The translations under genes were made by a program, and so were the position numbers. This document shows positions 2,019 to 38,549 of a stretch of DNA of 44,193 nucleotides, one piece after another (position 1 is the stretch's first letter; each line of letters starts with the position of its first letter). The notes under the pieces were generated by a model. It was given only the letters and a program-made list of their open reading frames with translations, was not told where the DNA came from and did not search any database. Origin of the DNA: a virus; IMG/VR virus record IMGVR_UViG_3300031507_000014, positions 1 through 44,193 of that record, one strand, 5' to 3'.

Positions 2019-2330
2019 ATGGACCGTCGTAAATTCCTAATCGGCCTATTTGGCACCGCAGCAATTGTAGCCGCAGGGCCATTGCCCGCCGTACTTGAGG
2101 CTATGCCTGAAGATCAATTCAAGGAGATCTTTCGCCGTGCGGGTATAGCTATGAAGGAAATATACCTCACACCAAATGGCGATTACATGTTCGCCAAGAT
2201 CAACTACCTACTCCAAGACCCTTGGGTTAAGATTGAAATCCCAGACGATGCCAAGCCACTTAAAGCTGAGAGTGATCGGATTGGTGAAGAGCAAATTGCT
2301 CGTATAAAGAAGGAGTTCAACGGTGGCTGA
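2019..2330 (+). CDS. Small protein with twin-arginine leader (103 aa)
   Basis: The start is set by AGGAGA 5-10 bases upstream, which lies in the end of the previous gene. The N-terminus MDRRKFLIGLFG, then a hydrophobic stretch to about residue 28, fits a Tat leader (twin Arg at 3-4, then Phe-Leu), with a possible cleavage site after the Ala/Pro-rich segment. The remaining 75 residues are hydrophilic, with no cofactor-binding motif that I can see. A Tat-targeted phage protein would act in or beyond the inner membrane. A plain N-terminal anchor is the alternative. The next gene starts inside its 3' end. Confidence 0.7.
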   Translation: MDRRKFLIGLFGTAAIVAAGPLPAVLEAMPEDQFKEIFRRAGIAMKEIYLTPNGDYMFAKINYLLQDPWVKIEIPDDAKPLKAESDRIGEEQIARIKKEFNGG

Positions 2331-14142: not shown

Positions 14143-14637
14143 TTAGTGTGGTATCTCCACGTGGGTTGATAGGATCATCATCAAGTCTCGCGGGTCGACG
14201 AGATGGGCCGGGACTGTGATTGGCCAGCGAAAGAAGCCAACTTCGCGAAGCAACAGGAACATCTTTGCCGAGCACACGGAATGGTATTTCTTATGATGAT
14301 GGCCAGGGAATAGGAAGCCCCAAGGTGCGGACCAGTCATAGGGCTCGCCAATGGCTTTGCGGGCGGAGGTGTAGAATTGATCGGATTGGGGTTGAGTGAC
14401 TGGCAGTTCTATCACAATCGCACACGGCCCATAGTTCCGATCGATATAGATCTCCTTCGTATCATACCCCATCGGCCGTTCTTGCATTCCGCCATGACCG
14501 AACTGACCAATGCACGTCCATTCAGGCGTAACGCATTCGGCATGGGTGGGGATAAAAGGCATCCCCACCATTCCAGATCGCCAGACAATTGCGCCGCAAG
14601 CAAAGCCTTTATGGCGAACGAAGCGGATGCGGATCAT
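14143..14637 (-). CDS. Permuted papain-like (NlpC/P60 or YiiX-type) enzyme (164 aa)
   Basis: The start overlaps the previous stop (ATGA at 14634-14637). After an N-terminal segment of about 30 residues, THAECVTPE supplies an early His, and HSVCSAKMFLLLRE near residue 120 supplies a Cys-Ser at the head of a helix. His first, then Cys, is the circularly permuted order seen in YiiX/YaeF-type papain-like peptidases and amidases. A DWSAPWGFLF stretch lies just before the Cys, as in that group. It could cut peptidoglycan peptides or lipid amides during lysis. No signal peptide is seen. The catalytic residues are proposed from pattern only. Confidence 0.6.
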   Translation of the reverse strand: MIRIRFVRHKGFACGAIVWRSGMVGMPFIPTHAECVTPEWTCIGQFGHGGMQERPMGYDTKEIYIDRNYGPCAIVIELPVTQPQSDQFYTSARKAIGEPYDWSAPWGFLFPGHHHKKYHSVCSAKMFLLLREVGFFRWPITVPAHLVDPRDLMMILSTHVEIPH

Positions 14638-15128
14638 AAGCCAGGAACCAAGGTAGCAAGCCCAGCGCCGCCTGAGATCACAATCCCAATGAACCCAACA
14701 ATATCCTTCTTCACCATTGATGCGACTGGCGAGCAGGCAATCATGAATGCCGAATCTGGTTGTAAGGCATTGCGGAGCTCTACAATCCGCTCGAACTTGG
14801 TTATGATCGCAGGATCAGGAACTGGTAATGGTTGGCCATCAGGGCCATTTATTGCCTTTTGGCGAATGTTGATCAAATCGATCCATGCGCCATAACACGG
14901 TGCAGTGACCTTAGACCCTGATGCATCGGCCATGAGCTTGGCATACTTCAAGTCGTCTAATAGCTTCACATCTAGTGCGCCAATGATGTTCTCCAATGGA
15001 TCGCTAGAGGTTGCAGGCGCTTGGCGAGCATTAAGCCCTAATGGATCGATAGGGAGCTTGAGCTTGTTCTGAGCCAAGGCCGAGGTCGACACCAACATCA
15101 TCACCAACAGGCTAATGAACCGCAACAT
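14634..15128 (-). CDS. Secreted protein with C-terminal hydrophobic segment (164 aa)
   Basis: The N-terminus is a clear Sec signal peptide: Arg at 3, hydrophobic core to about residue 17, and STSALAQ as the cleavage site. There is no lipobox Cys. The mature part is helical, with two cysteines (in TAPCYG and IACSP) that could pair in the periplasm. The last 25 residues are hydrophobic and Gly rich (VGFIGIVISGGAGLATLV), suggesting membrane insertion. It lies between the holin candidate and the papain-like enzyme. A spanin-like or lysis accessory role is possible, but it lacks spanin hallmarks. Confidence 0.65.
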   Translation of the reverse strand: MLRFISLLVMMLVSTSALAQNKLKLPIDPLGLNARQAPATSSDPLENIIGALDVKLLDDLKYAKLMADASGSKVTAPCYGAWIDLINIRQKAINGPDGQPLPVPDPAIITKFERIVELRNALQPDSAFMIACSPVASMVKKDIVGFIGIVISGGAGLATLVPGL

Positions 15129-15408
15129 GATCCACCTCCTTTGCTGCCACGGGCGGAACTACTGCTTCCACAACAGCCTTCAATGTCTCGTCCTTTGCCT
15201 TCGATCCGCTGGATGAACTGAAGTAATAGGAATAAACCTCCTTCAATGTGCCTGCGAGCACACCAATGATTGTCATCAGCACACCTTGAACGGTGTCGGT
15301 CATCTGCACTGCGTGAAGAAGTAGGATCAGCACAATGGCCGACATTATGGTGATGATCGCCACTGCTAGAAAGCCCTGGGTATCGGGCCAGTACCATGGT
15401 TTATTCAT
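15112..15408 (-). CDS. Probable holin (98 aa, two spans)
   Basis: The frame extends upstream to 15510, but the ATG at 15408 begins MNKPWYW and overlaps the endolysin stop as ATGA, so that start is chosen. Two hydrophobic helices (about 12-33 and 40-57) are followed by YSYYFSSSSGSKAKDE, a tyrosine-serine segment that I associate with phage holin-like proteins, then an acidic/Val-rich tail. It is directly downstream of the endolysin, the classical holin position. This is the best placed of three membrane proteins here. Confidence 0.7.
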   Translation of the reverse strand: MNKPWYWPDTQGFLAVAIITIMSAIVLILLLHAVQMTDTVQGVLMTIIGVLAGTLKEVYSYYFSSSSGSKAKDETLKAVVEAVVPPVAAKEVDHVAVH

Positions 15409-15929
15409 GTCTGCGGTCCTTTCAACATTGATAACGCATTCGTCTTCACACTCGCCGTACGGTTCAACCAACCTTGTGTGAATCGAGGTTGGTGAAGGGA
15501 CTTGTACCAATTGGCCTTGGTTGCGGAGAACTTCTCAATCAGGCCTTTGGCGTCGCAGTTGCGGATTGCTTGACGACTGACGGCCCCAATGCGTCCGTCA
15601 GGGTTCACACCAAGGGCCTTCTGCAACAACACCGCTGCACGATGCGGACCTGCATTCACTGCCATGTCAAAGTAGAGATAGTCGATGCCGATTGGCAAAT
15701 TATCACACAATGGCATCCAATATTCATCGTGATAGATCTGGGCAATGTCATGTGCAGACGCCTTCCACACATCTGATGACGGCCAACCCTGTTCCTTACT
15801 CCACGCATCATACTCCCTCTGTGTAATCCCTCGTGATGTCCTACCACCATGGTCTGCTGGATCGTCATCATTCCCACCTTCACTCTTTAACACAAGTGCT
15901 AAACAAGCCTGAAAGTTATCTGCGCTCAT
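15405..15929 (-). CDS. Endolysin, GH108-type muramidase (174 aa)
   Basis: The N-terminal half matches glycoside hydrolase family 108 (N-acetylmuramidase): the catalytic Glu17 in KSEGGNDDDP, followed by DHGGRTSRGITQREYDAW. The second half has YFDMAVNAGPHRAAVLLQKA and LGVNPDGRIG, as in the peptidoglycan-binding region that usually follows. Length is standard. It cuts the glycan strands of peptidoglycan to free progeny. It has no signal peptide, so it needs a holin; the likely one follows at 15112. The start overlaps the stop of the large ejection protein by one base. Confidence 0.92.
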   Translation of the reverse strand: MSADNFQACLALVLKSEGGNDDDPADHGGRTSRGITQREYDAWSKEQGWPSSDVWKASAHDIAQIYHDEYWMPLCDNLPIGIDYLYFDMAVNAGPHRAAVLLQKALGVNPDGRIGAVSRQAIRNCDAKGLIEKFSATKANWYKSLHQPRFTQGWLNRTASVKTNALSMLKGPQT

Positions 15930-24905: not shown

Positions 24906-27763
24906 CCCCCAGTCCTCTTGGCTTGATGTTCGTCTACGTTCAATATGACACCAAGGATGGTGGCAGGATAGGGATTCGATTGGCGAAAGCAGGTTTGGCC
25001 ATAGACGGTATAGGCTGGGTCGAGGATTGACTTGGCATCACCTGTGACGAGATCGGTGATGACTTGGGATGGGAGGCCGGTGAGCATGGTGCTGATATTG
25101 CCTCGGATTAGGTCTTTCATGGCAACTAGGGTAGTGAAGTCCGAGCCAACACTTAGCCCAAGGGTCTCAGCCACACGGGCATCTACGTCTTGAATCTTCT
25201 TCACTCGGCCTTGGATGGTTGGTTCGCCAAGGTCAACTGCAAGGGTTTGGAGATCACAGGTGTAGCCAATGCCGACTGTTACCTTGGAGGCTGCAACTCC
25301 GAGGGTAAACTGTCCGCTAACTGGCATAACAAACGGAGTGATGATAATTCCGTCCGCAAGACCAGTAACCGTAAGACCAGCCAGATGTTCAGCCCCAGAG
25401 AAGCTAGTAGCAGGAGCACCAGTATATTGAAGACCAGCATCGACACACCAAGCATCGGTTACTCCTGCTGTGAAGATGCGTTCCGCAAAGCGTTCGATGT
25501 ATTGAACAACATTGCCATTTACGGTTCGTTGGACGATTGAGTAAACAGCATCAACTGTGCCTGCTGGGGTTGATTGTTCGGTGATTGTGGTGACGGCTTG
25601 GAATGTGCCAAGGGTTGTGGAATGGGCCCAACCAATGAAGTCTTGTTCCTTAAGGAAAGTAAGGGTGAGCATAGCTCCATCGGATCGAACAGCCCAGAGC
25701 ATTTTGAACGGTTCTTCTGCCCATGACCAACTGGTTACGTTGAAACCGTAGAATAGATGAGAGGCGAGGATGGATATGTCTGTGCCGGTATAGACGTTTG
25801 CGTAGATGTTGTAAGAGGAATCACGGACGATTGAGCCTTTGGCTTGAACGTAGAGAACGTCATAGTTAGCTATGATTGGTTGGATATCGCTAACGCCGTT
25901 GAATGACTGGGCATTGGCGACTAAGGCAGTTGGGGTAATGGCTGACCCTGGGGAGCCACCGTTGATTAGCCACGAGGCTCGATCGGTGAGGACTAATAAG
26001 CCCGTGGTTTGGCTAACCATGGACTTAATTGTATTGAGTTGGCCAGAGACTAGAGTGGCGGTTATTGAATCCGTTGCTTGTGCTGGGCTTGAGACGTTGA
26101 AGTTATAATACGCTCCGGGTTGAGACATATAGAAGGTTTGGGGCGATGCGGTCGGGCCGGCTAAGATTAGGCGTTGCTGAAAGAATGCTGGAACAGATGG
26201 AAATCCATTGGAACTAGTGGATAAGGTAGCAGTGGCAGTGGCCGCGCCTGCGGAGAAGGTTACTGTTGGAACGCTTAAATATCCAGCACCGGAGTTCAAA
26301 ACTAAGACTTGCCCTACACCCCAAGTAAGAGTGGCTGTAGCACCTGTGCCTGCGCCTGAGGTTGACTGTTGAGCTACAGGATTGGCGGGAGTTGTACCTG
26401 AGGTTACAGAACCTGGGTTTGATGGTGCTACTGTAATCGCTTGCCATGCTGTAATGACACCAGCCGCTACGGTTTTGACTACAAGAATCACGCCATTGGT
26501 AAATGTGACTGTGTCACCAATAACATATCCAGCACCTCCTGCGGCGACTGCTGGTGTGCCTTGAACTTGAAGCACGACTGAAAGGGAACCAGCAATTGTG
26601 GAGGCTGCACCGGTTAGAGATGCCAGAGGGACGGTTGTGTAAGTTCCAGCAGCGGTGACTGTTACATGATCAACCCCTGAGCCTAAGAATGGATTCTTGG
26701 CAATTGGTGGTGTTTGGACAAAGTCTGGGGCGATGTTTGAATCAACAAACACATTCCCCGGGGCTGAGGTTGAGCCAATAAAGCCAAATATAGCTGTGGC
26801 GGATATGATACCAAAGTAACTGATTTCAGCTTTATATACGTTATAGCCCACCGCACCAGCTACTGCTCCCCAAGTTACTGAAATAGAACCTGCTACAACT
26901 CGTTGATCGTAAATAGGTCCTAGGTTTCCTACGCTTGATGGCGATGACTCTTGGCCATTCGCATCGATAGAGGTCACAACATAACCAACAAATGTGGCAT
27001 TTGGATTAGTTCCAGGGGCCGGAAATGATCCATTTAAGGCCGTAATTGCTGGAGCAGTGGCAGTTGTGCCGATGGTTATGGGAAGTAAGGTCCAATTAGT
27101 CGCAGTGACAAGGGTGAGGACATAAGGTTGATAGGATGGATGGCAAAGGACCATCTGGTTGACGTTTTGGGCGTATTTGATCTTAGCAAGATCGGCTGCG
27201 AGATATGGGGAGGTAATGGTATAAACACGTGAGGATGTGCCACCTGAGGTGTATGCCCCAAAGGCAGTTGAGTTGATCGCCACACCGTTGAGGTTGGCGA
27301 TGGTTACGGCATTGCCGGCAACGTTGGTAACGGAGAAATAACGTCCGTTGAGTTGGGTCATGCCAGCTACGGAAGCAACGAATATCCAATCACCGATGGC
27401 ATAGGTATTGCCAACAATGGTTAATACGCAAGGATTGGCTTGAGTTGCGCCTGTGATGGCGATTGAGGACTCAAGAACTGGTGCACCGTTGAAGAAGAAC
27501 CGAACGTAGCGATCGCCAAACTCTAGTACGTAGCCCACGGTGAAGGAGGCTTGGAAGGGGAGTAGGCGGACTGCGGTTGCGGATTTATAGCATTGGAGGA
27601 TGTATTTGGTCCCGGTTCGGGTGGATGCTCCACCACGATAGTCAACGAACCAGTTTAGGAGTAGGGCTGCGCCGGATTTGTATTTGGCAAGATCAACGCG
27701 GGAGTAGAGCTTTGGCGACCATTCGCCAGAGTTGAATGAGGCTTGGATATGTTGTTCAGCCAT
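24902..27763 (-). CDS. Tail nozzle (tail tubular protein B-like, 953 aa)
   Basis: The frame extends to 27781, but ATG 27763 overlaps the adaptor stop (TAATG) and gives the recognisable N-terminus QASFNSGEWSPKLYSRVDLAKY, then GGASTRTGTKY and LPFQASFTVGYVLEFGD. These are hallmarks of podovirus nozzle proteins. It should form the hexameric tube below the adaptor. Near residues 365-515 is a Gly/Thr-rich beta insertion (GAGYVIGDTVTF, later ANPVAQQSTSGAG) that also occurs in the adaptor. The C-terminal third contains QRLILAGP and VWAVRSDGAML-type blades, then YIERFAER, typical of the family. Confidence 0.9.
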   Translation of the reverse strand: MAEQHIQASFNSGEWSPKLYSRVDLAKYKSGAALLLNWFVDYRGGASTRTGTKYILQCYKSATAVRLLPFQASFTVGYVLEFGDRYVRFFFNGAPVLESSIAITGATQANPCVLTIVGNTYAIGDWIFVASVAGMTQLNGRYFSVTNVAGNAVTIANLNGVAINSTAFGAYTSGGTSSRVYTITSPYLAADLAKIKYAQNVNQMVLCHPSYQPYVLTLVTATNWTLLPITIGTTATAPAITALNGSFPAPGTNPNATFVGYVVTSIDANGQESSPSSVGNLGPIYDQRVVAGSISVTWGAVAGAVGYNVYKAEISYFGIISATAIFGFIGSTSAPGNVFVDSNIAPDFVQTPPIAKNPFLGSGVDHVTVTAAGTYTTVPLASLTGAASTIAGSLSVVLQVQGTPAVAAGGAGYVIGDTVTFTNGVILVVKTVAAGVITAWQAITVAPSNPGSVTSGTTPANPVAQQSTSGAGTGATATLTWGVGQVLVLNSGAGYLSVPTVTFSAGAATATATLSTSSNGFPSVPAFFQQRLILAGPTASPQTFYMSQPGAYYNFNVSSPAQATDSITATLVSGQLNTIKSMVSQTTGLLVLTDRASWLINGGSPGSAITPTALVANAQSFNGVSDIQPIIANYDVLYVQAKGSIVRDSSYNIYANVYTGTDISILASHLFYGFNVTSWSWAEEPFKMLWAVRSDGAMLTLTFLKEQDFIGWAHSTTLGTFQAVTTITEQSTPAGTVDAVYSIVQRTVNGNVVQYIERFAERIFTAGVTDAWCVDAGLQYTGAPATSFSGAEHLAGLTVTGLADGIIITPFVMPVSGQFTLGVAASKVTVGIGYTCDLQTLAVDLGEPTIQGRVKKIQDVDARVAETLGLSVGSDFTTLVAMKDLIRGNISTMLTGLPSQVITDLVTGDAKSILDPAYTVYGQTCFRQSNPYPATILGVILNVDEHQAKRTGG

Positions 27764-28863
27764 TAGTACATACCAAAGCAATCACCCCATTGGAAACCGT
27801 CGTAGGGTCCAGAGGTGTAGCTATTGCCAAATGCATTGCCGCGGAAGCGGATGAAGTCAGGGGTTACGTCGTTGACTACAAGGCCTTCATTGCCATCGGC
27901 AACGCGGGCTTCCATGATCCGTTCGTTGACGAGTTTGATTAAAGAGTTGGCCTTGTCACGGGAGTTTTCCTTGAGTGCCATCATCATGGCACTGGCGACG
28001 AGGTTGATCCAAGCGGTTTGGAATAGGGAGTCCATGACGTTGGGATCGGTGACTTGGCTGACGTAGCTAAGGGTGGCGAATTCTTGGTTGGTGAGGATTA
28101 CGCGTTGGGGTTGGGCAGGAGAGGATTGAGTTAGGGTGAAGGTTGCGTTGATGCCAACGCCAGTGGTTGAGCCTTGGGCAACTGGATTGGCTTGGGTGGC
28201 GAAGTAGGATCCGCCGAGAGGTGTGGCCTCGCCATTGACTTGGTTGACGACAGAGACGGTGGCGATCACCCCACCTGGGGCAGTGAGGACTTGAAGCTGA
28301 ACAGGCGCACCAATCGGGGCTACACCAGTTGCTCCAGCGGCTAGGGTGATGATATCGCCTACGGCGTGGCCTGTGCCGCCAGCGGAGACAGCGGCAGCTG
28401 TGACTGGAAGGAAGTAGTCGGTTTGAACAGCGTATCGAATTGGCTGGCCCCACCAATAGGATGAGGCACCTCCGGTTACGGCTGTGGTGATCGGAATTCC
28501 GCTGGTGAATCCAGTTTGGGTTGAGGGGATGATAAAGGCTGGACGAAGGCAATCGACAGGGTATTGATATTCATAGGCCCAAGGTGGCGGAGGTTGGCCT
28601 GGGGCCCAGAGAGTTGTGGCGGCGGAGGTGTTTTCAGGGGTTCCTGGGCTAGAGGTGATATAGGTGAGGTTAGCTGTCCGCATAGCACAATTCCACGGTG
28701 CTTTGCGGAGCAGGTCGTCCCGAGCGTTGGCGAAGATGAGGTTGAACTGAATGGCTTCGTTGGAGAGTGGTGTGCCAGTTGGTCCAACCTCACTTGCCGC
28801 AACGGTCGTGCGGGTGCCGAGGACTTGTAGCGATCGGTTGCAGATGTCTACAAGTGCGGTCAT
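27763..28863 (-). CDS. Tail adaptor (tail tubular protein A-like, 366 aa)
   Basis: The N-terminal helices (DICNRSLQVLGTR, then FNLIFANARDDLLRKAPWNCA) and YQYPVDCLRP are typical of gp11-like adaptors that join portal and nozzle. LVASAMMMALKENSRD and a helix to about 335 near the C-terminus complete the helical bundle. Residues 159-246 form a beta-rich insertion (GTGHAVGDIITL, ANPVAQGSTTGVG) that interrupts the fold and is repeated in the nozzle. Typical adaptors are about 200 residues, so the insertion explains the length. Downstream overlap with the nozzle suggests coupled synthesis. Confidence 0.88.
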   Translation of the reverse strand: MTALVDICNRSLQVLGTRTTVAASEVGPTGTPLSNEAIQFNLIFANARDDLLRKAPWNCAMRTANLTYITSSPGTPENTSAATTLWAPGQPPPPWAYEYQYPVDCLRPAFIIPSTQTGFTSGIPITTAVTGGASSYWWGQPIRYAVQTDYFLPVTAAAVSAGGTGHAVGDIITLAAGATGVAPIGAPVQLQVLTAPGGVIATVSVVNQVNGEATPLGGSYFATQANPVAQGSTTGVGINATFTLTQSSPAQPQRVILTNQEFATLSYVSQVTDPNVMDSLFQTAWINLVASAMMMALKENSRDKANSLIKLVNERIMEARVADGNEGLVVNDVTPDFIRFRGNAFGNSYTSGPYDGFQWGDCFGMY

Positions 28864-29910: not shown

Positions 29911-31917
29911 TTACTGTTGTTCTAACACACCGCCAATGGCGTATGTATGTCCTGAAACACCGGGGAAAGTTGAATCGTATAGAAACACAGACATTGTAGT
30001 ACCACCGCTAGAAACTGCTGCGGCTAAGGCCTTACCTATGTTGAAGTCCTCACCTGCAAATGGTGAATTACTTGCGGCTGTTACACCTGAGGGTAGGCCA
30101 ATGACAAAGTCTGTGGCACAGGTTCCATTTGTTGTGTCGACAAGATTAACCTCAATCTGCACTGTCTTGCCAAAGATCTTATACCGCCCTGTGATTGTGC
30201 TGGTGGTAATTGTACCTGTGCCACATGAGAATGATGGGGTATAGGTTGTCCATGCTGCACCATCGGGAGATATACTGGTTAAGATCCATCGAGAGGATGT
30301 GCTGTCATAGACAAAGGTTGCCGATGAATTTGCCGAAGGGGATAGGACAACAGTACCTCCGGTTAATGTAGCAATGCGATTGGCTGCAGTTGATGAGGCG
30401 TCTTCGTTTATAATAGACATGGTCTGCGAAACGGCGTTTGTGATGCGTAAGACTTGTCCCGCAGCGCCACCGGTAAAGCCGCCAATGCTAAAGGCACCTG
30501 TTGGGCCACTAGCGCGTAGGTAGGAATATTGGCCTGTTGCTACACCAATGTTTGAGTTAAGGCCATTAGCAAGGGTAACTGCACCTTGTGGTGAACGAAC
30601 AACGCCAAACTCCGCACCGATATTAGAGCTAATGTCAGACGTAGTTAGAGCTGAGACAGAAACGATGCCATTGGAGTTCCCAGTGACGTTGTTGCCTTTT
30701 ACCACATGTCCGTCACCAGTTAGGCTAATACCATTGGTTTGACTGGTTGAGAGATTGCCATTGATGATGCCAACACCGGCATTGATTTGAATACCCGATA
30801 CTTTGCCAGAGACCGCAGCAGCTCCATTGCCGAATATGGCATTGCTACTAACGACTGTGTAATTGGCATTGCTGTTTATGCCCGAGTACGAATTGCCAAC
30901 GATGGAGTTGCCAACGAGTTCGGTTACGTTGTTATTGACGGTTAGGTTGATACCATGTCCCACATGCGTTGCGGTGGTGCCTTGGTTTACGCCACAAGCT
31001 GTTGTACCTGCGATTTCTATCTCGGCATTTTCAACTCGTTCGGTAGAGGTACTAAATGTGTCCATGTAGATTTCGTCGTCACAATCTTGGCCAAAGAATC
31101 CGCCAATGATCCTAGGACCTTGAAGGATTATAGCTCCGCTTGTGCCGAGAAGGCGTACGCCCTTGCCAAGGTTTGCGAATGTAGCTTGGTTAATTATTTC
31201 ACCTGTGGAAGAGGTGCAGGTTACTGCTTCCCAACGAACACCATCTCCGTTGCTTTGTTGGCTTAGGTTATTAATCAAAGACCATTGAAGACCCTGACAA
31301 CCATCGGCATTTGTGACATATATACCGTGATTCTGCGCATTGTTGGCTATGGAGTTTTGTAGCTTATTGAAGCTTGCTCCAGCTAAGCGGAAGTCATTAT
31401 AATGATTATCAATCCAGACCTTGTCGATGTTGGCATAATCACAGATAGTATTACAGTGAATGCCATCTTGACCACTGATAGCAGGACTTCCAGTACGGGT
31501 TAGTTTTAAGTCATGAATGTATACATATGACGTTCCGTTAGTGATATTGAAGGTATTGTTAGTACAGGTTGATGTAAATATAGTTGCGCCAAATCCATCA
31601 CCATAGATCTCTTGGCCATTGGTGCTGATAGAAGGGCAGGTGCCGGATATCTTGTACGTTCCTTTGGGTGCATAGATGGCTTTGCCAGTGGCTAAGGCAG
31701 AGGTTAGAATAGATGTGGCATCAACAACACCAGTGGGATCAGCACCGAGGGAGATTAGATTAAGTGGTATTGTCCCATTTTGAACATAGGCAGTTGAGGC
31801 ACAGGCATTGGAGTTGTCATTAACAGGTCGAGTTGGACAAGTTAGGTTGCCTTGGGCCAGTACCAAGGACGGCAAAAGACAAAGCCCTAGAGCTATAATG
31901 ATGCGCTTTAGAATCAT
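29911..31917 (-). CDS. Tailspike-like beta-helix protein with Sec signal peptide (668 aa)
   Basis: The frame opens at 31989, but ATG 31917 overlaps the previous stop (ATGA) and begins a textbook signal peptide: MILKR, a Leu/Ile core, and LPSLVLAQG. Soon after, LISLGADPTGVVDAT and APKGTYKISG mark the start of a pectate-lyase-type beta-helix, followed to about residue 420 by short repeats rich in Asn, Gly and Ile. A fibre-like domain then has GQVLRITN, NEDASS, NRIATLTGGTVVLS and a RWIL strand, before a small C-terminal domain. It probably binds or cuts a surface polysaccharide. A cleavable leader on a virion spike is not usual. Confidence 0.85.
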   Translation of the reverse strand: MILKRIIIALGLCLLPSLVLAQGNLTCPTRPVNDNSNACASTAYVQNGTIPLNLISLGADPTGVVDATSILTSALATGKAIYAPKGTYKISGTCPSISTNGQEIYGDGFGATIFTSTCTNNTFNITNGTSYVYIHDLKLTRTGSPAISGQDGIHCNTICDYANIDKVWIDNHYNDFRLAGASFNKLQNSIANNAQNHGIYVTNADGCQGLQWSLINNLSQQSNGDGVRWEAVTCTSSTGEIINQATFANLGKGVRLLGTSGAIILQGPRIIGGFFGQDCDDEIYMDTFSTSTERVENAEIEIAGTTACGVNQGTTATHVGHGINLTVNNNVTELVGNSIVGNSYSGINSNANYTVVSSNAIFGNGAAAVSGKVSGIQINAGVGIINGNLSTSQTNGISLTGDGHVVKGNNVTGNSNGIVSVSALTTSDISSNIGAEFGVVRSPQGAVTLANGLNSNIGVATGQYSYLRASGPTGAFSIGGFTGGAAGQVLRITNAVSQTMSIINEDASSTAANRIATLTGGTVVLSPSANSSATFVYDSTSSRWILTSISPDGAAWTTYTPSFSCGTGTITTSTITGRYKIFGKTVQIEVNLVDTTNGTCATDFVIGLPSGVTAASNSPFAGEDFNIGKALAAAVSSGGTTMSVFLYDSTFPGVSGHTYAIGGVLEQQ

Positions 31918-32267
31918 ATGTTTGAATCCATCACAGTAAGAGCGTTGGTAGTGCCAGCAGAGGCAATTGCTTGCCATGCTGTTTGGCATTCGCCGGTAAT
32001 GGTGAGTGAGCCACCATTACCAAAGACACGAAAGGATCCACCAAGGGCAGCTAGGGTTGGGGTTAAAGTAGTACCGGTAGCGGTAGTAGTTGGTGAGACA
32101 AAGATATCATTAGTCCCAGGATTGTGGAATGTAATTGAGTTGCGCTGGGGATTAGCCGGCGCAACTGATATGTTATTGGCATTAGTCACGGTGTTAAATG
32201 CATACACCTTCCCACCGGAAGCGGATGCCACTGTTCCGGGTGACCCTGGGTTGGTGAAGATTGTCAT
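31914..32267 (-). CDS. Small beta-rich late protein (117 aa)
   Basis: The product is rich in Thr, Asn, Ala and Gly and appears all-beta (ITFHNPGTNDIFVSP, GSFRVFGNGGSLTITGE). NSITFHNPGTNDIFV is the kind of sequence found in small phage decoration or head-fibre-like proteins. No signal peptide is present, unlike its neighbours. The start overlaps the previous stop by one base and its end overlaps the tailspike start. It is probably a minor virion or fibre-tip component. Confidence 0.65.
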   Translation of the reverse strand: MTIFTNPGSPGTVASASGGKVYAFNTVTNANNISVAPANPQRNSITFHNPGTNDIFVSPTTTATGTTLTPTLAALGGSFRVFGNGGSLTITGECQTAWQAIASAGTTNALTVMDSNI

Positions 32268-32797
32268 TACACTCTCCGTTCAGCGGTCTTGCCTTGAAGT
32301 AAGGTGGCCATCAGCTTTTGGTTCATGGCAAGCATATCGGTCATGGTCTTCATAATCTCTGCCATGCCCTCGATCTTGACGACATTGGCTTCGGATTGGA
32401 TTCGAGCTTGCTCAGCCTGGAAGCTTTCCATCACATGTTGGCCAAAGGACATGTCGGCATTGGGTGCCATTCCCCAACGCTTGGCGAAGGTTGCGGAGAC
32501 GGACTTGGCTTCGTCGTCAACAGGGATCATGTCGGGAGTTGGGTCGCCGATGAAGATGATGTCGTCTTTGTGCTCTTCACCGGTACGCCGTGCGACGATG
32601 ATTTCCCCAGCGACTACTTCGCCGCGAGGGTTGCGATATTGAACGTTCCAACAATTGGGATCATCAACGTCGAGTTGAAGAGGAACCTTAAGCCGAGTGC
32701 GGATCTGTTTGCCAGTCGCGCGATCAGTTTCGTTATACTCCCATTCGTTATTTTCGACTGAGAGATAGTGGGAAGTGGAGAGACGCCAGCGAGCCAT
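32267..32797 (-). CDS. Unknown late protein (176 aa)
   Basis: The N-terminal 85 residues look beta-rich (RWRLSTSHYLSVEN, then EVVAGEIIVARRTGEEHKDDIIFIG). The C-terminal 60 are a long helix with many Gln, Glu and Met (ESFQAEQARIQSEANV, then KTMTDMLAMNQKLMATLLQ) that could oligomerise. Similar proteins lie in the head-tail region of related phages, as far as I recall, without assigned function. A structural role is likely from position. Confidence 0.65.
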   Translation of the reverse strand: MARWRLSTSHYLSVENNEWEYNETDRATGKQIRTRLKVPLQLDVDDPNCWNVQYRNPRGEVVAGEIIVARRTGEEHKDDIIFIGDPTPDMIPVDDEAKSVSATFAKRWGMAPNADMSFGQHVMESFQAEQARIQSEANVVKIEGMAEIMKTMTDMLAMNQKLMATLLQGKTAERRV

Positions 32798-32809
32798 AGT
32801 GTAGTCCTT

Positions 32810-33268
32810 TCAGGTTAAGTCTTGGCCAAGGATATAGACATCACAAGTAGCGGCAGAACCTTGGGCGGTAGTTAGGGAGAGATAAAGAGGTGAGGTAGTT
32901 GAACGAGTGGTGGATAAGTTAGCGCCGGCGTTGAGGGTAGCAGCTAATAGGATGGTTGATGCAGTTAAGGCGCTATAGACTTGTGTATTAGCAACTAAAG
33001 CAGTACCGCCCTTAGCAGTTGTCGGATAGAATCCTCCAGCCGCAGTGGTCATAGAGATTGTGCAATTGGTAATCCAGATTGCGGAGATGTTGTAGACCAA
33101 GGCCGAGATTGGGATCGCTTGATCAGTAGTGACGTTGAAGTTGGCAGTACGAAGTGTACCAAGAACTCGACTGGTTCCAGCATTAATACCAGAAGAGATA
33201 ACGGTCTGGGCCGCTGATGGCGTGATGCCAATAACAATGGCAAAGAGTGCTAAAAGGAGCCGTTTCAT
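32810..33268 (-). CDS. Secreted beta-rich late protein (152 aa)
   Basis: The open frame goes back to 33319, but ATG 33268 overlaps the previous stop (ATGA) and gives a Sec signal peptide: MKRLLLALFAIVIGITPSAAQT. The mature part is Ser, Thr and Ala rich, all-beta, with two Cys (ITNCTIS, ATCDVYILG) that could pair outside the cytoplasm. It sits in a run of similar genes. The composition is like decoration or fibre domains. The mature protein may be on the virion or remain in the host periplasm; sequence does not decide. Confidence 0.7.
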   Translation of the reverse strand: MKRLLLALFAIVIGITPSAAQTVISSGINAGTSRVLGTLRTANFNVTTDQAIPISALVYNISAIWITNCTISMTTAAGGFYPTTAKGGTALVANTQVYSALTASTILLAATLNAGANLSTTRSTTSPLYLSLTTAQGSAATCDVYILGQDLT

Positions 33269-34527
33269 TGGACTGTTCCGTGGATGAAGCCAACGGTGGA
33301 GAGCGTTAGCGTTCCGCAAGCGGTGGATGAGATTGCGGCGGTTATACCGGTGGAGAAGAACTCAAAGGGTTGCGGAGTGTAGTTGATACCGCCAACTCCA
33401 CCTGCGGCGATTGGGATACAGTCTTGCAAGGCATTGGCAGCGGTTCCAGCGGTGGTTGCGCCATTGCTTGGGGCGGCGATGGAGTTGAAGATCATAAGCC
33501 AGCAGGCAGCGGTGCAATTGGCATATGCGCCGATTAAGTGACCGGGAGAGGCTTTAAGGACGGAACTAGATGCAGCCGAGCCAGCTATAGTGGAGATTGC
33601 GGTGATTGGATTGCCTGAGGAGTCACCAATGGTTACTTGGTTGATTTGCATCGTCGAGCCCGCTGTGGGGCCTACGGTGTTGTTGACGACGACGAATGAA
33701 GCAGGGAGTTGGTTAACGTCAGGGCCTAAGGCTCCACGAGTGGTGTAGGCTACAAGGAGGAGTTGGCCATTTACTTGGTTCTCCATGTACCAGAGGATGT
33801 TGTCACCGCGGAAGTAGATGACGTATTTGTAGGAACCAGTATCGGTGTGTTGCGGAGTGCAAGCACAGCCCGCACTGAATGATCCAACTGCACCGGAGAG
33901 AGATTGAGTGGAGGCTGGGGTTATGCCTTGAGCCACAGATAGATCGGCGATAATGGTTTTGGTACCTGAGGCCCAGGTTACCGCACGAAGCTTGCCGTCA
34001 ATGCCATCTTCAAAGCCAACACAGTTGGTGCAATAGGCTGCGGCCGTGGGAGTAGTTGGGATCGTGCCGAAGCCGATGTATTCAACGGTATTGGTTGTGG
34101 ATGGGTTTGAGAGGTTGATGTTGGCTTGGAAGAAGACATAGCCTGGGTTCTTGTCGAAGAAGATCAGCTGTGTGGTGAGGGCTGAGAAGCCGTTAGCGGT
34201 TGTGTTGCCAACGAGGGTGGTTTGACCCACAGCGTTAGAGGCGATAGTACCACCAGAACCAGAGGTTGGCGATTGCCAACGATTGATGGTATTGAGGGTA
34301 CCGGCAGAGAAATCGTCGACGAAGAGTTGTTTGGTTTGATCGGGCCAGTTTTGAACCCAACCACCGTTGGTAGTGGGAACGGCACCGATGGGGACACCTT
34401 GAGAGCCGTTGGAGAATGATCCGGCTTGAGGGACGACGTTGGCGCCGCCTTGGATTGGGAACTGCTGGGCCAGCAGCGGCGATGCCAGCCCGAAGAGAAG
34501 GATAGATGCCGCTACTAGCTTTCGCAT
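33265..34527 (-). CDS. Secreted lectin-like (jelly-roll) protein (420 aa)
   Basis: ATG 34527, not the upstream start at 34545, begins MRKLVAASILLFGLASPLLAQQ, a Sec signal peptide. From about residue 70, LFVDDFSAGTLNTINRWQSP, then QLIFFDKNPGYVFFQANINL, VEYIGFG and DGKLRAVTW, have the order of strands seen in concanavalin A-like/LamG or GH16-related folds. No catalytic ExDxxE is seen, so binding is likelier than cutting. The last 110 residues form a further beta domain with several Cys (CTAACW, QDCIP, STACG). It probably recognises sugar. It is coupled to the protein at 32810. Confidence 0.7.
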   Translation of the reverse strand: MRKLVAASILLFGLASPLLAQQFPIQGGANVVPQAGSFSNGSQGVPIGAVPTTNGGWVQNWPDQTKQLFVDDFSAGTLNTINRWQSPTSGSGGTIASNAVGQTTLVGNTTANGFSALTTQLIFFDKNPGYVFFQANINLSNPSTTNTVEYIGFGTIPTTPTAAAYCTNCVGFEDGIDGKLRAVTWASGTKTIIADLSVAQGITPASTQSLSGAVGSFSAGCACTPQHTDTGSYKYVIYFRGDNILWYMENQVNGQLLLVAYTTRGALGPDVNQLPASFVVVNNTVGPTAGSTMQINQVTIGDSSGNPITAISTIAGSAASSSVLKASPGHLIGAYANCTAACWLMIFNSIAAPSNGATTAGTAANALQDCIPIAAGGVGGINYTPQPFEFFSTGITAAISSTACGTLTLSTVGFIHGTVQ

Positions 34528-34538
34528 TTGGTTGATCC

Positions 34539-35867
34539 TTACCAAGAGGTTACAGCGATGAATCCGTCACCGCCTTTGCCGCCAGTGCCGGTTGTAGCAA
34601 CGGCAGTACAGGCACCACCAGAGATACAGGCTACGCCTCCACCGCCACCACCACCACCATGGGTACCAGCACCGCCAGCACCTGGGTTGATTGTGGATAG
34701 GGTTGAGGACGCCCCGCCACCACCTCCGCAACCGATTTGGTTGGCGGCGAATGCGGCGGTTGAGACGCCTGGGGTTGTGGCAGAGGAGGTAACAGCGCCA
34801 CCAGCAGGAGCAGTGTTGCAACCAGTAGATCGTCCACCGGCTCCGCCAGCAGTGGTTGCAGGTGCGGTTGTGATACCACCACCAGAACCTCCACCTGGGG
34901 CTGAGAAGGTAGAGTCACCTCCAGCTACACCAGCTGCGCCTGCGGCTGTACCGCCTGCACCTCCTGCTCCACCACCGATGCTTTGGGAAGTGCCGCCGGT
35001 GAGAGATGATCCACCAGCGCCACCAGCAAAGACAGCAGCGCCACCAGTGGATGTGCCGACGTTGCCAACTGCGGCAAAGCCACCACCTGAGCCACCTCCA
35101 GAGCCACCAGCGCCGGTAAGGCCAACACCACCACCACCCCCGCCAAAGGCTTGGATGATAGGAGTGCCACCGCAGGCAGCGGTTCCGCCGAAGCAAGTGT
35201 TACCTCCGACGGTTCCCGATGCGGTATTAGCAGCAGCAGCCGCAGCAGCGCCGATGGTGAGGACTTGGCTTGCGCCGAGGTCGGATGCACGGAAGACTTG
35301 CTCGATACAAGCTCCACCACCTCCCCCTGCACCTCCGCCCCAAGCAGTACCTGAAGCAGGACCTACACCAGCGCCTCCGCCTCCTCCTCCGGCTCCGCAA
35401 GCAAGAACCCTAGCCCAGGCAATGCCTTTGCGTGCGGTCCAAGTTGCAGCGCCAGCGGTTTGGAAGACTTGAACATCAGATGCGGAGATGGTTGCGGCCC
35501 AGTTTGAGCCATTGGTTGGGGTTAGGGATACGCGAGAGAATGCGCCGGTGAGGACAATGGAGGTTGTGGCTCCATTGATGGTTTCGCCGGAGGCTGGGGT
35601 GATGGTGAGGGTGTTGGTTGAGGTCACGCCACCGATTACGTCGATTACGTCAAGGGAGATGGCAGGACAGGTTTGACCGACACAAGAAGCACCTGCGGAA
35701 GGCAGGGTCCAGATGCGTGCGGCGGTGAGGGCCACGGAGGTGATAACGCGTTGGTCCGTGGAGAGCATGGTGTAGGCAGCGTCACCGATGGGAGTGGAGG
35801 TGGTGACGGCAAGTGCGGGAGATGCCAGTAGGGCAAGACCCAGGACAAGTGCGAGGATCTTGTTCAT
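34539..35867 (-). CDS. Secreted glycine-rich fibre-tip-like protein (442 aa)
   Basis: ATG 35867 overlaps the previous stop (ATGA) and begins MNKILALVLGLALLASPALA, a signal peptide; the frame is open to 36035. Residues 20-160 have strands as in phage fibre proteins (RVITSVALTAARIWTLPSAG, then ITPASGETINGA, then NWAATIS). The remaining 280 residues have many short poly-Gly runs separated by Ser, Ala and Thr, ending KGGDGFIAVTSW. Such polyglycine sandwich tips bind receptors in T-even-like adhesins. The GC-rich repeats could recombine and vary. A proline-rich frame on the other strand is the complement of this gene and not a gene. Confidence 0.8.
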   Translation of the reverse strand: MNKILALVLGLALLASPALAVTTSTPIGDAAYTMLSTDQRVITSVALTAARIWTLPSAGASCVGQTCPAISLDVIDVIGGVTSTNTLTITPASGETINGATTSIVLTGAFSRVSLTPTNGSNWAATISASDVQVFQTAGAATWTARKGIAWARVLACGAGGGGGGAGVGPASGTAWGGGAGGGGGACIEQVFRASDLGASQVLTIGAAAAAAANTASGTVGGNTCFGGTAACGGTPIIQAFGGGGGGVGLTGAGGSGGGSGGGFAAVGNVGTSTGGAAVFAGGAGGSSLTGGTSQSIGGGAGGAGGTAAGAAGVAGGDSTFSAPGGGSGGGITTAPATTAGGAGGRSTGCNTAPAGGAVTSSATTPGVSTAAFAANQIGCGGGGGASSTLSTINPGAGGAGTHGGGGGGGGVACISGGACTAVATTGTGGKGGDGFIAVTSW

Positions 35868-36307
35868 GACGAACTCATGCAGATGTAAGAGATGACTAAG
35901 CTGGTAGCTGATGCATAGTTGAAGACAGCGGTAGTGGTAGTAGTTGCTAAGAACAATGGCCCAGCATTGGTAACAGTAGTCGACATCTGACAAGATGGTG
36001 CCGTAACGAAGGCTGTACCGAAGGTGAGAGTACAAGCAGTAGTACCACTTGAACCAGTAGTGATCTTGCCAGCAACATCAGTACCAGCAACAGTTGGAGT
36101 TGTACCGCAAGTACCAACTGTGGGTACTGGTCGTACACTGGGGGTAATAAGGATATGGCCCTGGAAGTAGGTATTGAGTAGGGAGTCAAACCCAATCGGT
36201 CCGCTAGGGTCTTGAGAGAGTTGGACCGACTTGGTAACGTTCTGGGCATAGACAAGGCCAATGGAGAGGCCAAGGATGAGGAGGATTGGGGCTAGGATTC
36301 GACGCAT
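35864..36307 (-). CDS. Secreted fibre-domain-like protein (147 aa)
   Basis: A signal peptide is clear: MRRILAPILLILGLSIGLVYAQN. The mature part opens with KSVQLSQDPSG, then from residue 65 has the pattern VGTCGTTPTVAGTDVAGKI, TACTLTFGTAFVTAPSCQ, then ISYICM. I associate it with C-terminal domains of phage fibre and host-surface proteins. Four or five Cys in this stretch suggest disulfides, consistent with export. Function is probably host attachment or decoration, but it has no proven relatives here. Confidence 0.7.
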   Translation of the reverse strand: MRRILAPILLILGLSIGLVYAQNVTKSVQLSQDPSGPIGFDSLLNTYFQGHILITPSVRPVPTVGTCGTTPTVAGTDVAGKITTGSSGTTACTLTFGTAFVTAPSCQMSTTVTNAGPLFLATTTTTAVFNYASATSLVISYICMSSS

Positions 36308-36310
36308 GGG

Positions 36311-36955
36311 TTATTCCTCCGTCCAAGTTACAGAGCCATTTAGCACGCCAGAGGAGATTGAGATGGTGTTGAGGTTGATGCAGAGTTGCTGGGCAACGCC
36401 ACGAAGAGTTGGGACTTGGACATTGTTCTCGATGTCACGGCCCCAGTCGAAGATAGTCATGGCAGGTTGGGTTGCTACAGAGGTGACAGATAGGGCCATG
36501 TTTGCCGAATCGATATAAACCGGTGCGGCGTCATTGATGGTCGGCACTGCAGTGTAGGAGACAAGAACCGCAGAGGCTGAGGTGTTGGCAGCTTGGCCGG
36601 TATCGCGAGAGGCGATTTGGGTTGTGATACCGGGGTTAGCTGTGGTTGTGCCGATAGTACCGCCAGTGTCAGCCGTGGCACGTTTGACCACGGTGACTGG
36701 GAGTTGGACCAAGGTGCCGGCTGAACCGCCGATCACCATGCGTACTACACGCACGACTTTAGTTGCCGAGCCAGCGATGCAGACTTCATCGGTTGCGGAG
36801 GCAGGGGGGACTAGGCCGATGAAGGCTGAAGAGTAGGTTACCTTGGGGAGATAACCCGTGGTGAGGCCAATCTGAGGCACAGCATTGATCTGAGCCGATG
36901 CGGGACAAAGGGCCAATAGGCCCAATGCCGCAGATACAAGGAGGAGCTTTTTCAT
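36311..36955 (-). CDS. Secreted beta-rich late protein (214 aa)
   Basis: ATG 36955 is preferred over 37039. It follows AGGAGC and opens a signal peptide, MKKLLLVSAALGLLALCPASAQ. The mature part is beta-rich, with two well-spaced Cys (DEVCIAGS and QQLCINLN). A middle section, RVVRMVIGGSAGTLVQLPVTVVKRA, and the later stretch TRDTG...VLVSYTA, resemble head or tail decoration proteins. It lies just after the cement protein, and could be a head-fibre relative that acquired a signal peptide, or a true secreted protein. Confidence 0.7.
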   Translation of the reverse strand: MKKLLLVSAALGLLALCPASAQINAVPQIGLTTGYLPKVTYSSAFIGLVPPASATDEVCIAGSATKVVRVVRMVIGGSAGTLVQLPVTVVKRATADTGGTIGTTTANPGITTQIASRDTGQAANTSASAVLVSYTAVPTINDAAPVYIDSANMALSVTSVATQPAMTIFDWGRDIENNVQVPTLRGVAQQLCINLNTISISSGVLNGSVTWTEE

Positions 36956-36965
36956 GATTGGCTCC

Positions 36966-37493
36966 TTAGTTGGCAATCGCAATACCCGGTGGATAGCCAC
37001 CAAGCACAGCGTTGTTGGTTGATTGATACATCTGATCATGGCGATCGAGGACGATGAAGGACGAGATGTTGCCAGACACCGCGCCGACTGAGGTGTAGAC
37101 TAGACGAAGAAAGCGAGGAATGGCGACACCGGCTGGGGGTCGGGGCATGTCCATGTCGAGGAGACGTGCACCGGCTACGAGTTGGGCCGTGGTGTAGACA
37201 GCGGAGACGTACCAAGTGGAGTAGGTGGCAGGGGCGCCTGAGCCGTTGTCGGTTGCGCCTTGGAGGGTTACGGAGAGGGAGGTGCCACCAGTGTAGGCAG
37301 TGGTAACCTGAACCAAGAGTTTGAGTGCGGGATCGTCACCGATGCCGATGTCCCGTGCGCCTTGAAGGTTGGCGAGGACAGGCAGACCACCACCAGAGAT
37401 GTGGAGATCAATGACGTTGGTGGAGTTTTGCGTTGTGCCATTTGGGTTGACCAAGGCCGCAACGTCGAATGCTAGAAATCCATCGAGAATCAT
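36966..37493 (-). CDS. Bbp16-like capsid cement protein (175 aa)
   Basis: It directly follows the major capsid gene. MILDGFLAFDVAALVNP, STNVIDL, ARDIGIGDDPALKLLVQV and RFLRLVYTSVGAVSGN are the pattern of the Bbp16 family of BPP-1, where it caps the capsid lattice. Length is normal for that family. It should stabilise the shell after expansion. Confidence 0.85.
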   Translation of the reverse strand: MILDGFLAFDVAALVNPNGTTQNSTNVIDLHISGGGLPVLANLQGARDIGIGDDPALKLLVQVTTAYTGGTSLSVTLQGATDNGSGAPATYSTWYVSAVYTTAQLVAGARLLDMDMPRPPAGVAIPRFLRLVYTSVGAVSGNISSFIVLDRHDQMYQSTNNAVLGGYPPGIAIAN

Positions 37494-37505: not shown

Positions 37506-38549
37506 TCAGGTAACCTGGGCTTCGTTGTTGAGGATCGCGTCACAAGTACGGACGGGGAGACCGCGGAAGGTGGTGATGACCTTACCTTGGAATTCCTCGA
37601 GGCGGAGCAGGACGTTGGTTTTGTTCATGGCCTGGAGGTCTAGGTAGGTTCGGATAACACGGTTGCAGTACATCACAACCCGGCCCATGTTGGCCCGAAT
37701 GTCAGGGGTGTCGGAGGATTGGATCGCGGTGGCCGAGGCAGGTGCGGTGGGTAGGCGATAGAGTGCACGGACAAGGAGGTTGATCAGATTCGCGGCCGAG
37801 ACGCCGGTAAGCTGAGTCACGTCGATGTTCGCCACACGCGCGGTGTATCTCCAATCACGAAGGACGAGGCCAATCTCCCACTTGAAGTGATCGCGATAGG
37901 CTTGGTAGGTGTTGCCAGATGCGTCTTGCACAGGCCATTCACCCATGTCGCGGTGTTGGAGACCAGTGATCTTGCCCTTGGGGAATGTGGCATGGGTGGT
38001 GTCGGATCCCCAAGTCGTGATCCAGATCGAGGAGTTGGTTGTGGATACACCACCGCCATCGAGGACGTTGTTGGCGGTTTGGGATGCGGAGGTGGTCTTG
38101 GTTGAGTAGCGCGGGGCGAAGCCAGTGAAGCGTTCGGGGTTGGTGAACTGATTGCCGTAGATGAGCGTTGCGGCGATCTGTTGTGACATGCCTTCGAGGA
38201 AGGCACGGACTTCGGACAGGCGAAACTCAGCGGTGTTGCCATTCAGGTCGGCGATGTCTTTGTCGATCACCGCGTAGGTTTCGAGGTTGCCACAGGTGTC
38301 GACGATCTGGGCGGTGGTCGATTTGGCATTGGGGACGCCTTGGTTCAACAGACGCCAAGTGGCCTGAGGGAGGCCGGTGCGGACCGTGGTCTTGTGTCCG
38401 GTTGGGAGGTTACCTTCAACAACGAGCATGTCATCGAGGATCTCGTTGGTTTGGGAAAGGAGTTCGATGATGGAGGCGATGCGGTAGCCGTCTTCGAGCC
38501 GCTTCGCCCAATCGGCGTAGGTTAAGGCTAGTGAGCCAAGAATTGCCAT
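37506..38549 (-). CDS. Major capsid protein, Bbp17-like (347 aa)
   Basis: It follows the scaffold and precedes the cement gene, the standard order. Recognisable stretches are YADWAKRLEDGYRIASIIELLSQTNEIL, GHKTTVRTGLPQATWRLLN and LNGNTAEFRLSEVRAFLEGM, as in BPP-1-like capsid proteins with an HK97 fold. There is no clear delta domain or protease nearby. Its mRNA leader has an inverted repeat (38562-38632), with the AAGGA ribosome site just past the stem, which may affect expression level or mRNA stability. Confidence 0.92.
   Translation of the reverse strand: MAILGSLALTYADWAKRLEDGYRIASIIELLSQTNEILDDMLVVEGNLPTGHKTTVRTGLPQATWRLLNQGVPNAKSTTAQIVDTCGNLETYAVIDKDIADLNGNTAEFRLSEVRAFLEGMSQQIAATLIYGNQFTNPERFTGFAPRYSTKTTSASQTANNVLDGGGVSTTNSSIWITTWGSDTTHATFPKGKITGLQHRDMGEWPVQDASGNTYQAYRDHFKWEIGLVLRDWRYTARVANIDVTQLTGVSAANLINLLVRALYRLPTAPASATAIQSSDTPDIRANMGRVVMYCNRVIRTYLDLQAMNKTNVLLRLEEFQGKVITTFRGLPVRTCDAILNNEAQVT

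Follow-up and report, generated by a model that had tools for sequence, protein, structure and literature searches.

A predicted module of Sec-exported, disulfide-bonded spike and lectin-like proteins in uncultured relatives of Bordetella phage BPP-1

The window, a 44,193-nucleotide stretch of virus DNA from IMG/VR, belongs to an epsilon15/BPP-1-like podovirus that encodes six late proteins with predicted Sec signal peptides between its cement and tail genes. The cluster is interpreted as a receptor-binding module whose components would be made as Sec-exported proteins. Export is well supported from sequence, with cleavage and export themselves inferred. Docking of the spikes on the virion is an inference made without virion proteomics, an isolate, or a known host. 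The combined reading, in which exported spikes and lectin-like proteins oxidize in the periplasm and dock on adaptor-bearing virions at lysis, is favored with moderate confidence.

Assignment to the epsilon15/BPP-1-like podoviruses rests on a homologous major capsid protein and a Bbp16-type cement gene directly after the capsid gene, and the window has both; a further trait of the group, a conventional fiber gene with the MTVST...GNG N-terminal domain behind the ejection protein, is missing from it. The capsid protein shares 42-54% identity over its full length with those of epsilon15, phiV10, BPP-1, and their relatives. A Pfam Bbp16 match confirms the cement label that the sequence-only reading had given to the gene at 36966-37493. 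The genes concerned are:

37506..38549, minus strand: major capsid protein (phrog_212, E 2.5e-79), the query for collecting relatives
36966..37493, minus strand: cement protein of the Bbp16 family, without a leader, upstream border of the cluster (PF21190, E 2.2e-8, over the curated cut-off)
36311..36955, minus strand: fam9 protein with a Sec leader (mature 193 aa, 2 Cys; SD GGAG directly before the ATG)
35864..36307, minus strand: fam10 protein, lectin-like, with a Sec leader (mature 126 aa, 4 Cys)
34539..35867, minus strand: fam43 protein, glycine-rich and adhesin-like, with a Sec leader (mature 422 aa, 10 Cys; ATGA overlap)
33265..34527, minus strand: Sec-leader protein fam25, lectin/LamG-like by eye only (mature 400 aa, 8 Cys)
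32810..33268, minus strand: fam44 protein, small, with a Sec leader (mature 132 aa, 2 Cys; start and preceding stop overlap as ATGA)
32267..32797, minus strand: fam5 protein, without a signal peptide, syntenic in nearly all relatives (176 aa)
31914..32267, minus strand: fam13 adaptor, a small β-sandwich without a signal peptide (117 aa; AlphaFold2 pLDDT 83)
29911..31917, minus strand: tailspike with a Sec leader (668 aa, mature 647 aa, 12 Cys; its ATG and the stop codon of 31914-32267 overlap as ATGA)
27763..28863, minus strand: tail protein in the bbp14 position, without a leader, downstream border of the cluster (phrog_394, E 3.2e-31)
14634..15128, minus strand: separate signal-peptide protein with a hydrophobic C-terminus, encoded in the lysis region (mature 145 aa, 2 Cys)

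A rule-based predictor was used for signal peptides instead of SignalP. It recovered 14 of 19 exported E. coli proteins and made 3 false calls among 66 other proteins. All seven signal peptides proposed for the window were found, and the six calls among its 13 gap genes have a probability of about 1e-6 at a 3% false rate. The predicted leaders, with the +1 residue after the slash, are MILKRIIIALGLCLLPSLVLA/Q, MKRLLLALFAIVIGITPSAA/Q, MRKLVAASILLFGLASPLLA/Q, MNKILALVLGLALLASPALA/V, MRRILAPILLILGLSIGLVYA/Q, MKKLLLVSAALGLLALCPASA/Q, and MLRFISLLVMMLVSTSALA/Q. The six late leaders claimed by the sequence-only reading are thus borne out. The seventh, at 14634, also has a signal peptide, but its gene lies two genes after the endolysin (15405-15929) and its product has a hydrophobic C-terminus; because of these features it is treated as a different matter.

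The true starts are internal ATGs at 31917 for the spike, followed by 33268, 34527, 35867, 36307, and 36955, with 15128 for the lysis-region gene. Position 36955, where the region described from the letters alone ended, is the start ATG of the cluster's first signal-peptide gene. The genes starting at 31917, 33268, and 35867 do so in an ATGA overlap with the preceding stop codon, and the ATGs of the other three late genes lie 3-11 nt behind the preceding stop. SD-like motifs precede 55% of the signal-peptide starts in relatives vs 9% of random positions. The possible objection that the true starts lie downstream of the leaders is unlikely because these overlaps, spacings, and SD-like motifs belong to the leader starts.

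Relatives were picked by the capsid protein alone. Signal peptides were called on 181 of 561 capsid-to-tail gap genes vs 22 of 619 genes upstream and 21 of 728 in outgroup phages. The signal peptide is nearly all-or-none within each family (27/28 homologues of fam10, 24/30 of fam9, 0/46 of fam5), and the core virion families lack it. The leaders meet the criteria for Sec and signal peptidase I, namely a positive n-region, a hydrophobic core, an AxA site, and no lipobox, and Gln occupies +1 in 139 of the 181 proteins. Bacterial lipoproteins were not supported, with a lipobox and Cys at +1 in 0/160. A few RR leaders look Tat-like (L008:7894, L041:4170, and L073:6320) and the bulk are Sec. Display by a C-terminal membrane anchor was not supported, as in only 23/160 proteins does any part of the mature chain reach even borderline hydrophobicity. 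A C-terminal F, Y, or W, one part of the criterion for a Lom-like barrel, occurs in 27/160.

The mature proteins encoded by the seven window genes contain 2, 4, 10, 8, 2, 12, and 2 cysteines, an even number in every case. An even number was found in 118 of 123 distinct mature signal-peptide proteins (p = 4e-29), and the controls gave 80/195 for core virion proteins, 38/80 for other leaderless gap proteins, and 168/448 for outgroup proteins. Cysteines are also gained and lost in pairs. The fam10 pair is retained jointly in 13 proteins and lost jointly in 4, and the pair in the spike motif is complete in 38, absent in 8, and reduced to a single Cys in 2, both of which have a differing Cys arrangement at the mature N-terminus. 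Odd-Cys spikes account for 10/63 in a wider, less filtered set. Parity and paired gain and loss are the strongest new evidence, and they indicate that the signal-peptide proteins evolved as disulfide-bonded and hence exported proteins. Oxidizing folding in the periplasm, where the disulfides would form, is well supported on the same grounds.

The large signal-peptide protein at 29911-31917 is the window's spike, with its presence in the virion not directly shown. Its mature N-terminus, QGNLTCPTRPVNDNSNACASTAYV, precedes a putative pectate-lyase-like β-helix segment, and its core matches pectin-lyase, pre-neck appendage, and tail collar proteins of isolates (E 3e-5 to 0.07) and no Pfam family. 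The chain runs from the leader into a short, conserved motif that starts at or soon after the predicted cleavage site, and does not meet the tailspike criterion of an N-terminal virion-binding domain in the same chain. The fam43 protein matches phrog_863 tail fiber assembly (E 1.5e-13), the AlphaFold2 model of fam10 is a β-sandwich with structural matches to fiber tips and H-type lectins, and no Pfam family matched fam25. The impression that several of these proteins resemble tailspike, lectin, or fiber domains with paired cysteines holds up in both fiber-type resemblance and even Cys counts.

The fam13 and fam20 adaptors are unrelated leaderless families; fam13, which matches small caudovirus proteins (E 1e-5), is paired with no spike N-terminus other than D.SN..A.T.FV, and fam20 with none other than QCNGxF (18/0 and 0/7, p = 2e-6). 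A larger classifiable set of 42 fam13 and 24 fam20 cases contained none that were crossed. The window and L003 have identical capsid proteins, yet adaptor and spike both differ. In a motif scan of 2.9 million contigs, all 58 QCNGxF...CG sites lay directly after a leader on contigs with a fam20 match. L072:14486 joins the fam20 adaptor signature to a pectate-lyase-type spike that has 7 Cys and no leader, L012:4436 joins the GPSIGW core of that signature to a leaderless fiber with an S74 chaperone, and in L192 fam13 stands alongside a leaderless spike without the Cys pair. The existence of leaderless spike relatives means that export is not needed for spike function. An HMM built from five isolate fibers did not find the conventional MTVST...GNG fiber N-terminal domain in the window, and this domain occurs in only 4 loci of the capsid-selected clade. 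Of 24 complete gaps, 22 contain a signal-peptide spike; L039 is without such a spike and has the conventional fiber.

The clade consists of soil phages that are uncultured and related to Bordetella phage BPP-1. Only two of its loci turned up in 84,980 species genomes, both in MAG contigs (L084, called Terriglobia, and L085, called Telmatospirillum); one 36 kb and one 5 kb contig are insufficient to settle the host. None of the 385 and 299 genomes examined from the respective classes contained the QCNGxF motif. Among 50,697 phage isolate records there was no match to the fam20-type leader spike start, fam9, or fam10, and of the cluster queries only the β-helix body of the window spike matched.

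In the proposed mechanism, host Sec would export the spike and five further lectin- or fiber-like proteins late in infection. Signal peptidase I would cleave them, usually before Gln; this step is well supported by the leader sequences and actual cleavage is inferred. The proteins would then fold and form disulfides in the periplasm, as Cys parity supports. Capsids bearing the tail and a leaderless adaptor, which is fam13 in the window and fam20 in others, are inferred to assemble in the cytoplasm as in other podoviruses. The pools would mix at lysis and the mature spike N-terminus would dock on its matching adaptor, an inference from the pairing and the adaptor-signature fusions to a leaderless spike. 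The spikes thus probably fold outside the cytoplasm with disulfides and join the particle only when the cell bursts. We put only slightly better than even weight on the full two-compartment scheme, in which oxidized periplasmic spikes snap onto cytoplasmic capsids with adaptors at lysis and the adaptor/spike cassette is exchanged between lineages. Such a scheme needs a late meeting of cytoplasmic adaptor and periplasmic spike, and the sequence gives no timing.

The suggestion that the phage exports fiber-like proteins is strongly supported by family-conserved signal peptides, even Cys numbers, and Cys-pair co-loss. That they are virion parts is favored by fiber replacement, adaptor/spike pairing, and adaptor-tailspike fusions, without direct demonstration. 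Signal peptides and Cys parity require export only, so the proteins could instead be never virion-bound, acting as secreted depolymerases or lectins that remove surface polysaccharide near the lysing cell, or as Lom-like or decoy proteins that block receptors on debris or superinfecting phage. Lambda Lom, whose gene lies in the tail region, bears a leader (PMC12309495), and some cluster members weakly match arabinofuranosidase or concanavalin-like domains. This explanation would, however, leave the window without a recognizable receptor-binding protein and the strict pairing and the signatures fused to leaderless fibers unexplained. We consider it unlikely, and it remains possible for the smaller proteins of fam7, 9, 10, and 12.

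The export and pairing evidence also fits spikes docked before lysis at or through the inner membrane on particles finished at the envelope, and M13 G3p is an example of an adhesin that has its leader processed and can be added to particles at the membrane (PMC8310372). This route is improbable in a window whose endolysin (phrog_315) is normal and whose head and tail genes are those of a podovirus; few signal-peptide proteins have a candidate anchor, and no export apparatus was seen. We give very little credence to leaders that do not serve export, either retained on a virion protein, where they would form a hydrophobic tip or a membrane-active peptide, or bypassed by downstream starts. Virion parts do normally fold in the cytoplasm and the leader is hydrophobic, but the AxA sites with Gln at +1, even Cys numbers, start-site signals at the leader, and motif placement at or soon after the predicted cleavage site all stand against it.

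If docking at lysis is correct, receptor-binding proteins of a common soil phage group are exported and disulfide-bonded, and such spikes are missed by fiber searches built on known virion-binding N-termini. Phage host range would then include the Sec, signal peptidase, and Dsb functions of the host. Cys parity offers an easy check of sequences from other viromes for such modules, and where spikes meet the virion becomes testable with one protein pair. Textbook tailed-phage assembly is wholly cytoplasmic. In open-licence papers, whose silence is weak evidence, no tailed phage was found whose receptor-binding proteins carry signal peptides, and we could not find an earlier description of an exported-spike construction there. 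Phage DGR target proteins are stated to have no signal peptides (PMC6199706).

Tailspikes and fibers of epsilon15/BPP-1-like phages (bbp9/Mtd, phiV10 p25, PfDIW6 gp17) share with the window spike a related virion core, late-region receptor-binding position, β-helix or lectin-like domains, and variable C-terminal parts. They lie behind the large ejection protein and have an MTVST...GNG..T.FPF virion-binding domain and no signal peptide, whereas the window spike has a Sec leader, a position between the cement and tail genes, and a separate leaderless adaptor. M13 G3p has disulfides. It is a receptor-binding virion protein made with a Sec leader, and leader peptidase processes it (PMC8310372). 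G3p has a membrane anchor and is added to particles as they are extruded at the membrane, whereas the window comes from a lytic tailed podovirus and most of the cluster proteins lack an anchor, and the criterion of a G3p-like C-terminal anchor is not met (only the 23/160 borderline stretches, anywhere in the mature chain). Lambda Lom resembles the cluster proteins in having a signal peptide and a gene in the tail gene region (PMC12309495), but it is a host outer-membrane β-barrel and not a spike, and has no adaptor partner. Secreted and SAR endolysins are phage proteins exported by Sec late in infection (e.g. PMC12571629); unlike the cluster proteins, they are lysis enzymes and not receptor-binding.

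The window, a 44,193-base viral record from IMG/VR, encodes a capsid protein 42–54% identical to those of phiV10, BPP-1, epsilon15, and related phages. The Bbp16 cement protein is present, the head-tail, tail, and ejection genes lie in the usual order, and a search with the first 20 kb found no near DNA relative among isolates. In BPP-1, phiV10, and PfDIW6, the cement-tail stretch is limited to one or two small genes without leaders, and the fibre sits behind the large ejection protein. In contrast, this stretch (the gap) covers ~8 kb and 12 genes in the window, no fibre gene follows the ejection protein, and no conventional fibre domain was found anywhere in the window. The features discussed are:

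29911–31917 (−), spike with a Sec signal peptide (leader)
31914–32267 (−), leaderless putative adaptor, family fam13
34539–35867 (−), glycine-rich leader protein
35864–36307 (−), leader protein, family fam10
36311–36955 (−), leader protein, family fam9
34528–35472 (+), 314-aa ORF antisense to the glycine-rich gene, probably a composition artefact
14634–15128 (−), protein of the lysis region with a signal peptide, two cysteines in the mature chain, and a hydrophobic C-terminus (GFIGIVISGGAGLATLVPGL); its position and shape point to a spanin-like role, but it lacks a lipobox
2019–2330 (+), early gene for a 103-aa phage protein whose start (MDRRKFLIGLFGTAAIVAAGPLPA) resembles a twin-arginine (Tat) leader

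The sequence-only reading had claimed seven signal peptides, and all seven are real leaders according to a rule-based predictor whose calibration used annotated E. coli genes (14/19 exported proteins found, 3/66 others called). The true starts of the leader genes are internal ATGs. Of the six late leader genes, three (31917, 33268, and 35867) overlap the preceding stop as ATGA, and the remaining three start 3–11 nt behind it. Across relatives, an SD-like motif is found at 55% of leader starts versus 9% of random positions. Cleavage between A and Q is predicted in 139/181 leaders of the clade; the resulting N-terminal Gln could cyclise to pyro-Glu. Cluster proteins of some relatives carry Tat-like RR leaders (L008:7894–8613, L041:4170–7166, and L073:6320), so export may use Tat besides Sec in places.

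Searching with the capsid protein gave at least 599 relatives, of which 80 were kept. Leaders occur on 181/561 clade genes between the capsid and tail genes versus 22/619 upstream in the clade and 21/728 in outgroups. The pattern is nearly all-or-none per similarity family: leaders are carried by fam10 (27/28), fam7 (30/35), fam9 (24/30), and fam12 (22/26), and by no member of the capsid, scaffold, portal, tail, fam5, fam8, fam13, or fam20 families. The predictor also called leaders on 5/66 cement-family ORFs; these calls are unresolved and likely longest-ORF artefacts. Some relatives have a second leader-protein group ~7–9 kb upstream of the capsid gene (L010:3059–5082, L017:2308, L055:3152, L069:1544, and L076:2934), which includes 541–577 aa proteins starting QGYLN with even cysteine numbers.

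Unpaired cysteines are expected to be avoided by proteins whose folding takes place in an oxidising compartment. Cysteine numbers are even in 158/163 mature leader proteins with any cysteine, and in 118/123 after repeat removal (p = 4e-29), compared to 134/330 leaderless late virion proteins (80/195 after repeat removal). No bias towards even numbers is seen in non-core gap proteins without a leader (38/80) or in outgroup proteins (168/448). All seven mature proteins of the window have even cysteine numbers (2, 4, 10, 8, 2, 12, and 2). One pair is invariant in fam10; the other is present together in 13 sequences and lost together in 4. Both cysteines of the spike N-terminal motif are present in 38 sequences, neither in 8, and one in 2 with a different cysteine arrangement at that position. 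Even numbers occur in 27/32 motif-selected spikes and 53/63 complete spikes of the wider adaptor-selected set. This parity is strong evidence, from sequence, that the leader proteins are exported and disulfide-bonded. The export of fibre-like proteins proposed earlier is supported by conserved leaders and cysteine parity, and is inferred for living cells.

In the window spike, a pectate-lyase-like segment resembles isolate proteins of the tail collar, pre-neck appendage, and pectin-lyase types; the glycine-rich protein matches a tail fibre PHROG. The fam10 AlphaFold2 model (pLDDT 74) has a leader helix and a β-sandwich. Its best structural matches are tail-fibre, H-type-lectin, and tailspike receptor-binding domains, with significance only for uncharacterised phage proteins. 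A leader spike is present in 22/24 loci with a complete gap; L039 lacks one and has a conventional fibre domain. Weak ArabFuran-catal and Laminin_G_3 matches were seen on cluster members L032:17503–18426 and L074:14150–14983, only the L074 ArabFuran match exceeding the Pfam cut-off; members of this type have leaders in some phages and not in others. In some relatives, the cluster also contains a multi-spanning membrane protein, fam28 (L005:3940, L023:2492, L035:12563, L039:8449, L060:12439, and L071:6339), which is O-antigen polymerase/ligase-like by eye and possibly a receptor-modifying gene.

One of two unrelated leaderless proteins directly precedes the spike. Mature spikes start Q..xCPTRPxGDNSNACAxTxFV after fam13 and QCNGVFxxNTVCGN after fam20. 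The adaptor by spike-start table is 18/0 and 0/7 in capsid-selected loci (p = 2e-6), and adaptor-selected loci gave 42 and 24 matching pairs and 0 crossed, the rest being motif variants, gene insertions, mis-called ORFs, or unclassified starts. HNH-endonuclease-like ORFs (by eye) lie between the adaptor and spike positions in L028 (9058) and L149. The same capsid protein occurs in the window, which has fam13, and in L003, which has fam20; their spikes differ as well, indicating that adaptor and spike are exchanged jointly. When all viral contigs were scanned blind for QCNG[VIM]F-x5-CG, 58 sites emerged. Every one lies immediately after a leader (55 assigned by rule and 3 by eye), on a contig that has a fam20 match. 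The available stretches of L237, L262, and L247/L266 show no capsid or tail marker of the window, so the cassette may have spread beyond this lineage.

The sequence-level evidence consists of leaders, real starts, conservation, cysteine pairing, adaptor/spike pairing, and the lack of a conventional fibre. On the simplest reading, the adaptor acts as the virion-side anchor and the leader spike is its exported partner. Leader proteins would be exported, cleaved, and oxidised in the cell, the leaderless adaptor would sit on the virion, and the mature spike would dock onto it at lysis. The leading rival, that the proteins are exported but never join the virion, also accommodates the leaders and cysteine parity. 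Adaptor/spike pairing argues against it for the spike, as do fusion genes: L072:14486 is a leaderless spike of the pectate-lyase type, with 7 cysteines, fused to the fam20 signature, and L012:4436 is a leaderless fibre that begins with the GPSIGW core and has an S74 chaperone. In a third informative exception, L192, fam13 lies beside a leaderless spike that keeps the motif and has lost the cysteine pair. The pairing and fusion evidence argues less strongly against the rival for the small proteins (fam7, fam9, fam10, and fam12).

No tailed phage with exported spikes was found in the open-licence literature. Filamentous phages do have receptor-binding virion proteins with a Sec leader, as in M13 G3p (PMC8310372), and tail-region genes that encode a leader, such as lom, have also been described (PMC12309495). 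Two-compartment assembly, if confirmed, would be a mode of assembly new to tailed phages.
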